Shown here: positions 23,321-46,118 of the stretch, piece by piece
Layout: each line of letters begins with the position of its first letter
How positions within the stretch are numbered: position 1 is the first letter of the stretch
NCBI RefSeq assembly: GCF_900166635.1
Contig: NZ_LT800497.1
Location: 1,216,303-1,280,302, forward strand
DNA length: 64,000 nucleotides
From: Oceanobacillus timonensis
Lineage (GTDB): Bacteria; Bacillota; Bacilli; Bacillales; Amphibacillaceae
Reading direction: 5' to 3'
Made by a program: the position numbers and the translations under genes
Notes under the pieces: model-generated
What the model was told of the DNA's origin: nothing
Database searches by the model: none
The model's input: only the letters and a program-made list of their open reading frames with translations

Positions 23321-23541
23321 CTATATATTTTTCAACTATAATGTACAGAAAAATAATCCTTTTACTTGAGTTATTCACAAAACTAAAAAATCGTAATCTT
23401 TTTTGCCAAGTAACTCAACTTTTGCACCTAAGAATAAGCATATAAACCTTCCTGTTTCAGAATGAACATGATCTCTATTATCATGCTTGCTTCTCGTTAA
23501 ATCATCCTTCGCTTTTTGAACAGGATATGGTGTATAGCTTC

Positions 23542-23765
23542 CGCTCCGGCCAAGCCCTCCGCTTTCCATGGGGACGGCTTCAGCTAACTTGAAAAGAAGA
23601 CCGCTTTTCAAGTGGATCTTCAGCTCGCCCTGCGATGCACAAATGTTTTCGATGGGGCGAGTAAGCGCAGCCCCAGGACGTGCAAGTGCAGGCGTTGTGA
23701 CAGGAGTCACGGTTTTAGCCTGCAAACCACTTAGGAGTCTACGTGGTTGGCCTGCGCTCTAATAG
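23542..23765 (+). repeat. Fold-back repeat unit Z
   Basis: Outer arms GGCCAA (23548-23553) and TTGGCC (23747-23752). Conserved box CTTCAGCTAAC, then stem TTGAAAAG (23589-23596), loop AAGACCG, stem CTTTTCAA (23604-23611), then conserved box GTGGATCTTCAG. Units at 23943-24060 and 45868-45983 share the boxes and loop but have different stem and arm sequences that still pair. A REP-like hairpin lies within at 23654-23676. Confidence 0.75.
23654..23676 (+). repeat. REP-like hairpin, copy A
   Basis: TGGGGC, loop GAGTAAGCGCA, GCCCCA. The same loop recurs at 50480-50502 with TGGGAC/GTCCCA arms, a compensated base change. Confidence 0.7.
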
Positions 23766-23942
23766 GATGCTACAGCGTTTGTAAGAAATAACATCCTGAT
23801 GAAGTGAGATAAAATAATAGCATTCATGCAGAGAAAGAAATGCTTGCTGAACATTTTTACCATACACCACGAAAAATGTGTTCTGTCTGATCTACGTTTA
23901 TTTGTTCAGCTATTTCATATATTGAACATCCCACCAAGCGGA

Positions 23943-24060
23943 GGCGGACCGTTTTGACTCCTGAGGGATCAGCACCCTCTGAAGATCCACTTTTGCCAAG
24001 CGCTCTTCTTGGCAAAAGTTAGCTGAAGAGCGTGCCCCTAGGAAAGCAAAACGGTCCGCC
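23943..24060 (-). repeat. Fold-back repeat unit X
   Basis: Outer arms GGCGGACCGTTTTG (23943-23956) and CAAAACGGTCCGCC (24047-24060), 14 perfect pairs. Inner stem TTTTGCCAAG (23991-24000) and CTTGGCAAAA (24008-24017) with loop CGCTCTT. Reverse-strand orientation relative to units Y and Z. Similarity to the copy near clpP extends over about 23830-24163. Confidence 0.85.
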
Positions 24061-24163
24061 GCAGCGATCGCCTTACACTTTACCACTTTACCTTATCATT
24101 TTTGTCAATTCTTATTCTTTTGGAACGGAAGTTACTTTTTAAAGTGCGAAAATTGAGCAAGTA

Positions 24164-24471
24164 ACAAAAAATATATAAAACTCATAAAAAAAGAACCCAT
24201 TTCGGATACGGTTAAAAGTACGACCGAATAACCAGCAGAAAGGGTTCTTATAATAGGTGATTTATTGTAAATGTCGCTTGATGTCAGCGTGAAAAGGGGA
24301 TGGAGTCAATCGAATGGTTTGGAGATACAATATAAAAACTTCCACAACAGGAATACCTACGCTGGGAATGCTTTTTTGCAGGGATATATGATGCAAAAGA
24401 AGCTGTTTACAAGGGGGGGTGGTTCATTCTATATGATTAAGAAAGCTAAATATTTATTTCCTGGAAACTTT
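24164..24471. other. Unassigned stretch with a possible pseudoknotted RNA
   Basis: AAGAACCC (24191-24198) pairs with GGGTTCTT (24242-24249). Inside, TTCGG (24201-24205) can pair with CCGAA (24224-24228) and GGTT (24210-24213) with AACC (24230-24233); the two cross, giving an H-type pseudoknot. Downstream, an open frame from 24271 to 24507 and a broken frame reading SIEWFGDTI, stop, KLPQQEYLRWECFFAG suggest gene decay, but no family is recognised. Confidence 0.3.
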
Positions 24472-45710: not shown

Positions 45711-45747
45711 AACAAGTCAGGGTTGAACACCCTGGCTTGTTTTTTCT
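45711..45747 (+). terminator. Terminator after clpP
   Basis: AACAAGTCAGGGT (45711-45723) pairs with ACCCTGGCTTGTT (45729-45741) with one G-T pair, then TTTTCTT. Confidence 0.92.
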
Positions 45748-45750
45748 TAA

Positions 45751-46118
45751 TAACTCAATTTTCGCCCTTAAAAAAGTAAGTTCCTTTCCATCGGAACAGG
45801 GGTTGATCATTACTTACATACATCAGTTGACAAAGATGAGAAGGTAAGGTGTAAGGCAACCGCTACAGCGGACCGTTTTGCTTTCCTAGGGGCACGCTCT
45901 TCAGCTAACTTTTGCCAAGAAGAGCACTTGGCAAAAGTGGATCTTCAGATGGTGCTGATCCCTCAGGAGTCAAAACGGTCCGCCTCCGCTAGCAGGATGT
46001 TCTATACGGTTGCAATAGCTAAACAAATAAAAGTTCGATCAGACAGAACAAATTTTACGTGGTGCATGGTAAAAATGTTCAGCAAACATTCCTTTCTTAG
46101 GTGCGAAAGCTGAATTAA
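45751..46118. mobile_element. MITE-like non-coding repeat element near clpP
   Basis: Imperfect terminal inverted repeats: TAACTCAATTTTCGCCCTTA at 45751-45770 and its complement at 46098-46118, 15 of 20 positions matching. It contains fold-back unit Y and is similar over most of its length to 23830-24163. It sits between the clpP terminator and aroK; its right end supplies the aroK stop codon. No transposase gene inside. Confidence 0.6.
45868..45983 (+). repeat. Fold-back repeat unit Y
   Basis: Outer arms GCGGACCGTTTTG (45868-45880) and CAAAACGGTCCGC (45971-45983); box CTTCAGCTAAC; stem TTTTGCCAAG (45910-45919), loop AAGAGCA, stem CTTGGCAAAA (45927-45936); box GTGGATCTTCAG. Same design as units X and Z. 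Confidence 0.85.

Follow-up and report, generated by a model that had tools for sequence, protein, structure and literature searches.

Fold-back modules with constant loops and rebuilt helices are carried by several kinds of transposable elements in Bacillales and are probably conserved for their shape

Helix covariation is the customary proof that an RNA is functional. Structured or interspersed repeats include the double-hairpin elements of Allomyces mitochondria and the bcr repeats of the Bacillus cereus group. IS1272 is a member of the IS1182 family of insertion sequences (ISs). In Staphylococcus aureus, IS1272 has been reported to replace stem-loop or inverted-repeat targets (PMC5678879). 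In the RHEs of sponges, stems are described as conserved and loops as variable (PMC2800124), and the reverse complement of Bacillaceae-1 was proposed as a match to the CsrA motif (Gardner et al. 2014; PMC4333381). Within a 64,000-nucleotide stretch of the Oceanobacillus timonensis genome (the window), the initial annotation had described three fold-back units, Z, X and Y, which share two boxes and a loop; their boxes, loop and helices were recovered as first described. No paper naming this fold-back family was found in the literature searched, which covers subscription journals thinly.

None of the three units is free-standing. X and Z, initially taken for separate scattered members of the family, are instead two different inward-facing, subterminal fold-backs within one 744-bp insertion that ends in terminal inverted repeats and is flanked by a perfect 7-bp target duplication. 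Y is the sole fold-back of a 361-bp derivative with a target duplication of its own (Table 1). Compared with CTCAACTTTCGC, the termini have 1 and 1 mismatches in 12 positions in the 744-bp element and 1 and 2 in the element of Y. Alignment of X copies together with their flanks revealed that homology runs far past the hairpin, up to a repeat whose inverted copy lies on the opposite side. This terminal repeat has 34 matches in the genome that holds the window (the own genome), versus 0 for a reversed control. Among 22 distinct own-genome elements, perfect 7-bp duplications were present in 6 (shuffled mean 0.59, maximum 4 in 2000 shuffles) and duplications with at most one mismatch in 13 (shuffled mean 2.83, maximum 7). 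The exact-box fold-back is absent from 9 of these 22 elements, one of which (L010) has a one-base box variant, and it is therefore dispensable for movement. An orthologous empty site was sought in 28 genomes of the genus; a conserved flank was found only in G404, with no synteny past the flank. X had no match among 72,556 plasmid records.

Table 1. Positions, within the window, of the two elements and of the features that they carry
Feature	Position	Strand	Remark
Target-site duplication CAAGTAA, left copy	23407..23413	.	same letters as 24158-24164
744-bp non-autonomous IS4-type element (MITE)	23414..24157	.	terminal repeats and 7-bp duplication
Terminal inverted repeat core, left	23414..23425	+	
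Fold-back module Z, right arm interrupted	23548..23752	+	outer arms GGCCAA/TTGGCC; uninterrupted form is L070
Left box of Z, CTTCAGCTAAC	23578..23588	+	
Right box of Z, GTGGATCTTCAG	23612..23623	+	
Segment nested in right strand of Z at loop A	23633..23732	-	replaces TTCCCAT of L070
34-nt unit between GCAC and AGGACGTGC of Bacillaceae-1 hairpin	23641..23674	.	
Bacillaceae-1 match inside Z	23672-23734	-	RF01690, 42.6 bits, gathering 35
Conserved internal loop A, right half, AGGAGTC	23733..23739	+	
Fold-back module X	23943..24060	-	
Right box of X, GTGGATCTTCAG	23979..23990	-	
Left box of X, CTTCAGCTAAC	24018..24028	-	
Terminal inverted repeat core, right	24146..24157	-	
Target-site duplication CAAGTAA, right copy	24158..24164	.	
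361-bp MITE derivative with Y only	45754..46114	.	TTAATAA at 45747-45753 and 46115-46121
Fold-back module Y (X-type)	45868..45983	+	

A search of 397 genomes of the order recovered the 16-nt end of the MITE in 12. Eight full-length ISs of 1528-1530 bp, bounded by the ends of the window elements, were found in G171, G216 and G329; four of them had perfect duplications (L338, L340, L344, L346), two had duplications with one mismatch and two had four or five mismatches. The two IS proteins tested were assigned to the IS4_4 family (NF049925; 605.6 and 604.4 bits, cut-off 250) and contained the domains PF13546 and PF01609. These 1528-1530-bp ISs showed no box pair, and hairpin motifs were located inside elements of G037 that have such an end. 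Since the ends of the window elements are common to IS4-family ISs elsewhere, X, Y and Z are cargo of a non-autonomous IS4-type element. The ends were found at none of the 11 PF01609 loci of the own genome, and the window elements are therefore MITEs whose source was not found there; a missing same-genome transposase is compatible with MITE status, because the source can be lost. The initial suggestion that the units are substrates of an unlinked transposase thus held for the carrier, by its terminal repeats, its 7-bp duplications and the IS4-family ISs elsewhere that share its ends. On balance, we favor the view that X, Y and Z are IS4-type MITE cargo and that the family is a shape-conserved subterminal fold-back module of several transposable elements.

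When folded as RNA, X and Y gave z scores of -7.9 to -8.9 on either strand, and 0 of 200 shuffles folded as well. Folding of Z (23542-23765) was weaker (z of -4.1 on the plus strand, and -2.6 on the minus strand, where 4 of 200 shuffles were equal), because in the window copy a 100-nt segment takes the place of the TTCCCAT found in the uninterrupted Z-type copy L070; L070 reached z scores of -5.6 and -4.7 when folded as DNA. The own genome contains 26 exact matches to TTCAGCTAN{10,40}GATCTTCAG (reversed control 0), 17 of X/Y type and 9 of Z type, so that the variation is not that of one mutated copy. A further fold-back subtype, with the boxes CTCAGCCTCCTCGG / CTGCGGGGTCTT, is nested in this same MITE family of the own genome (L269, L285, L287), and the module of an IS in G396 is similar to it at the tip. 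As candidate identities of X, tsr24 (RF02577; 22.1 bits, below the gathering threshold of 50) and Rfam microRNAs (below gathering) were rejected.

Two claims at the core of the initial annotation, that two helices change in sequence without losing their pairing and that selection acts on a folded nucleic acid and not on protein, were strongly supported across genera by two-sided changes and by pairing above that of shuffles. In 31 aligned units (window Y added, and a non-pairing chance match, L231 from a Burkholderiales MAG, left out), the boxes were constant and the helices rebuilt, with two-sided changes at 24 of the 33 pairs of a structure predicted from the very alignment on which pairing was scored. 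In total, 93.6% of cells were paired (74.0% in shuffles) and 190 were two-sided (58.9 in shuffles, 0 of 500 reaching the observed number), and sliding the structure by 1-3 columns left just 37-54% paired. The helices of X and Z are nearly invariant within the genus, and independent changes are therefore fewer than cells. When loop A, irrespective of pairing, was the criterion of selection (51 of 86 units, the 35 set aside having no recognisable loop A, though many are well paired), helix positions 5-8 were paired in 49/50, 48/50, 42/50 and 47/49 units, versus shuffle maxima of 37, 36, 31 and 31. Frames of at least 150 aa contain only 1 of 142 units. Instead of selection, mutation might maintain the pairing, by template switching between palindrome arms or by conversion between copies, as would fit the mere two helix types among own-genome copies and the small number of mismatched cells (44 of 772). 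However, such correction would also erase the mismatches of loops A and B, yet these hardly change between genera, and single-mismatch forms occur; we therefore regard this explanation as unlikely.

An RNA helix that changes stepwise is expected to show G.U above A.C on the working strand. In the variable central helix of 97 distinct cores, 772 cells comprised 728 Watson-Crick pairs, 8 G.T, 13 A.C and 23 others; the comparison of G.T with A.C, made on 21 cells from cores with a loop-like neighbourhood, was compatible with equality (binomial p 0.38). This lack of a wobble excess in the variable helix favors DNA over RNA structure. Over the whole alignment, G.U outnumbered A.C by 64 to 23, and by 34 to 23 after removal of a single conserved U.G column pair, present in 30 of 31 sequences. 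The genes next to 118 scored units were co-directional in 37 and 34 cases, convergent in 32 and divergent in 15, counts that are partly symmetric by design because many elements contain an inverted pair. Structured non-coding RNAs, also proposed at the outset, were thus unsupported, given 8 G.T versus 13 A.C in the variable helix and no preferred gene strand (37 versus 34). Such RNAs might, for example, act as CsrA decoys, whose unpaired conserved GGA (the CsrA core) would be effective when copies are transcribed. This idea would accommodate the strong covariation, the U.G pair and the whole-alignment excess of G.U, and CsrA was found in 21 of 22 genomes; the proposed CsrA-motif match of the Bacillaceae-1 reverse complement (PMC4333381) points the same way. 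It is nevertheless improbable: the excess shrinks without the one column pair and is lacking in the variable helix, flanking genes show no strand preference, G317, a single-contig assembly, has 30 pattern matches but no CsrA match, and the copies are located in transposable elements. The gene arrangement, with more copies between convergent than between divergent genes (32 versus 15 of 118 scored), would also suit a role of the carried copies as bidirectional terminators of transcription or as insulators. We consider this role very unlikely, since the fixed internal mismatches would be needless for termination and a T-tract is absent on either side of X; moreover, intergenic MITEs show a convergent-gene bias anyway.

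As part of the segment nested in its right strand, Z contains the sole RF01690 match of the window; neither X nor Y had one above gathering. Forms without the nested segment are L070 and L460, whereas L457 has the GCAC/AGGACGTGC junction without the 34-nt unit, and in L065 a unit similar to the 34-nt one lies ahead of AGGAC in another hairpin. Of 17 interrupted module loci, 11 had an RF01690 match, in every case at most 19 bases from a module core, as compared with 0 of 3 uninterrupted loci. Across 135 distinct units, loop A was found on both sides in 103, with the right side missing in 14, the left in 9 and both in 9, the altered units including degenerate or chance ones (L135). Another unit, with GGGCACAAGTGC, occurred 21 times (14 distinct) in the loci examined, which are not a random sample, whereas its reversed control gave no match. 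For 10 of the 14 distinct units, the left half of loop A, as CTTTC or CTTGC, lies directly ahead, at most a few bases away. Each nested case is either an insertion of its own or a copy spread by the carrier. Bacillaceae-1 itself was found in 20 of 34 genomes, also where the module is absent; G150, G312 and G353, of the same genus, contain 29, 32 and 12 copies without any box match. The Bacillaceae-1 match nested within Z suggests that this "sRNA" family of Rfam includes mobile hairpin units. Recurrence of the GGGCACAAGTGC unit after CTTTC/CTTGC was seen in several genera (L088, L139, L158, L349, L363, L366, L439; a variant in L392), and Bacillaceae-1 copies were also seen between rRNA genes (LSU/SSU in L413 of the own genome, 5S/LSU in L422).

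Order-wide, pattern matches were found in 81 of 397 genomes (3 matches in total for the reversed control), many of which had single non-pairing matches resembling chance. Fifteen of the 397 genomes, from 8 genera and 5 families, contained between 10 and 127 matches (26 in the own genome, the maximum of 127 in G271); 7 of these rich genomes, all of family f25, are known by match counts only. Among the matches listed, paired units occurred in Gracilibacillus, Sediminibacillus, Amphibacillus, Paraliobacillus, Oceanobacillus, Alkalibacillus, Alkalicoccus, Salipaludibacillus, Salsuginibacillus and Aquibacillus. All 13 distinct inverted module pairs within 700 bp (7 in Oceanobacillus and 6 in Gracilibacillus, by inferred genus) were inward-facing, and in none did both partners have a common helix, the smallest difference being 2 of 9 positions. 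Two ends with one helix could pair together, and avoidance of such pairing is a possible reason for the differing helices. Direct tandem pairs numbered 4, all identical and all in G087. In contrast to the inverted pairs, the module is present four times in direct tandem with identical helices at L358 (G087:C1:534700-537300). Further module copies lie within ∼530 bases of contig starts (G107:C1, G271:C1, G094:C4 and C5, G361:C15 and C64), as expected if such repeats break assemblies.

A module-like box pair was also detected at 11 of 30 PF13751 loci (7 in G396, 2 in G069, 1 each in G338 and G037); the corresponding numbers were 0 of 11 for own-genome PF01609 loci and 1 of 30 for PF01797 (Y1_Tnp) loci. 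All 11 modules face the transposase frame at a distance of 23-276 bp, located 5' of the gene in G338 and G069 and 3' of it in G396 and G037. The IS of G396 is 1744-1746 bp long, and each of its 7 copies contains the module and is flanked by perfect 4-bp duplications; its 491-aa protein scored 261.7 bits against NF033551 (IS1182), just below the cut-off of 270. While this module represents a different apical subtype, the canonical boxes recur in the modules of G338 and G069, whose paired helices are their own. The ends of the G396 IS (GAATCAATTTCAT, which the window elements lack, having CTCAACTTTCGC instead) also bound small module MITEs of 258-269 bp, plus one of 199 bp, in G087 and G212. Perfect 4-bp duplications were present in 4 of these 6 elements (7 rows, one being an alternative end), which is weak alone given a shuffled mean of 1.0 and maximum of 4. 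In G308, the module occupies almost the whole of a 207-208-bp element with the ends GGCTCTGTTAAAGT; 8-bp duplications were found at 4 of 10 loci, in two of which an inserted unit extends the element to 264-265 bp. For carriers in G271, G094 and G361, ends flanked by exact duplications of at least 5 were not found, and for G107, with merely three isolated, differing matches, no carrier is claimed. At L258 (G069:C12), a right-arm-truncated module adjoins part of an IS1182-type transposase frame, as would result if an IS lost an internal portion. A search of 17 module genomes for PF13751 gave matches in 8, including the own genome (9 matches), and none in the other 9, among them G271, the richest in pattern matches; in the own genome, the module was absent from all 8 PF13751 loci examined. 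An IS1182-type enzyme is therefore not required today.

These results show that the carriers of the module are transposable elements. The reported action of IS1272 on stem-loops, together with the inward placement of the module in IS1182-type ISs, makes reading of its shape by a transposase the likeliest role, as we infer, although 9 of 17 module genomes gave no PF13751 match. The module might, conversely, be a landing target of IS1182/IS1272-type stem-loop-seeking transposition and not part of the ends of the elements. Such a target role would agree with the replacement of inverted-repeat targets reported in S. aureus (PMC5678879), with modules adjoining IS1182-type genes at 11 of 30 loci and with the weak similarity of X to tsr24 of S. 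aureus. It appears quite unlikely, as the G396 module is inside 7/7 copies, within ends that bear 4-bp duplications, and as an external target would have no need to face inward at all 11 loci. A REP/BIME-like or IS200/IS605-like hairpin moved by a Y1 (HUH) transposase is an even poorer candidate, which we hardly credit: hairpins do form in both DNA strands, and Y1_Tnp matches were present in 9 of 15 module genomes (one below the cut-off), but none was found in the other 6 (own genome, G271, G208, G361, G212, G338), and only a single Y1 locus had a module-like pair.

Returning to shape reading by a transposase, a broader form of this idea is possible, and we put it forward tentatively, as one that may well prove wrong: unrelated Bacillales element families would share a shape-recognised module, its loops would host smaller hairpins, and Bacillaceae-1 would be mobile DNA. 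A transposase, probably of IS1182 type, would read the fixed loops in a DNA fold-back, and the helices would be free to take any sequence for that reason. The same loops would serve as landing places for Bacillaceae-1, the GGGCACAAGTGC unit and the 34-nt unit, giving a self-nesting, structure-coded mobile system, and the covariation of Bacillaceae-1 would then reflect DNA structure. Bacillaceae-1 may be mobile DNA already listed in Rfam. Since strong covariation occurs here near the ends of transposable elements, in a module whose variable helix lacks the wobble signature of RNA, covariation screens can pick up mobile DNA, and counting G.T versus A.C offers a simple test for other repeat-associated "RNA" families. 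If an IS1182-type DDE transposase does read shape, the module would offer a way to test how IS1272 achieves its reported stem-loop-directed transposition.

Among known systems, bcr repeats are likewise interspersed Bacillus repeats. REP/BIME elements are likewise many-copy, intergenic, imperfect palindromes, but the module is longer, and the own genome had 0 Y1 transposase matches. The hairpin elements of mitochondria (Allomyces double-hairpin elements, yeast GC clusters and sponge RHEs) are also short, gene-less, repeated and structured, whereas the window family is bacterial and tied to DDE-type elements. Compared with the sponge RHEs, as described in PMC2800124, the pattern is opposite, with loops kept and stems varied in the window family. 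Bacillaceae-1 RNA (RF01690) is likewise a Bacillales hairpin unit with AGGA/UCCU loops, and one copy lies inside Z; X and Y, however, are not members, and Bacillaceae-1 is here an insert within another fold-back. Several IS1182-type ISs have the same module near an end, and IS1272 reportedly acts on stem-loops, but the ends of the window elements are IS4-type, and a conserved subterminal rebuilt-helix fold-back is absent from the accessible part of the IS1272 description (PMC5678879). IS4-family MITEs resemble the window elements in having terminal inverted repeats, 7-bp duplications, no genes, deletion derivatives and IS4_4 ends. Unlike these MITEs, the window elements bear inward-facing modules with rebuilt helices, which are also present in other element families.
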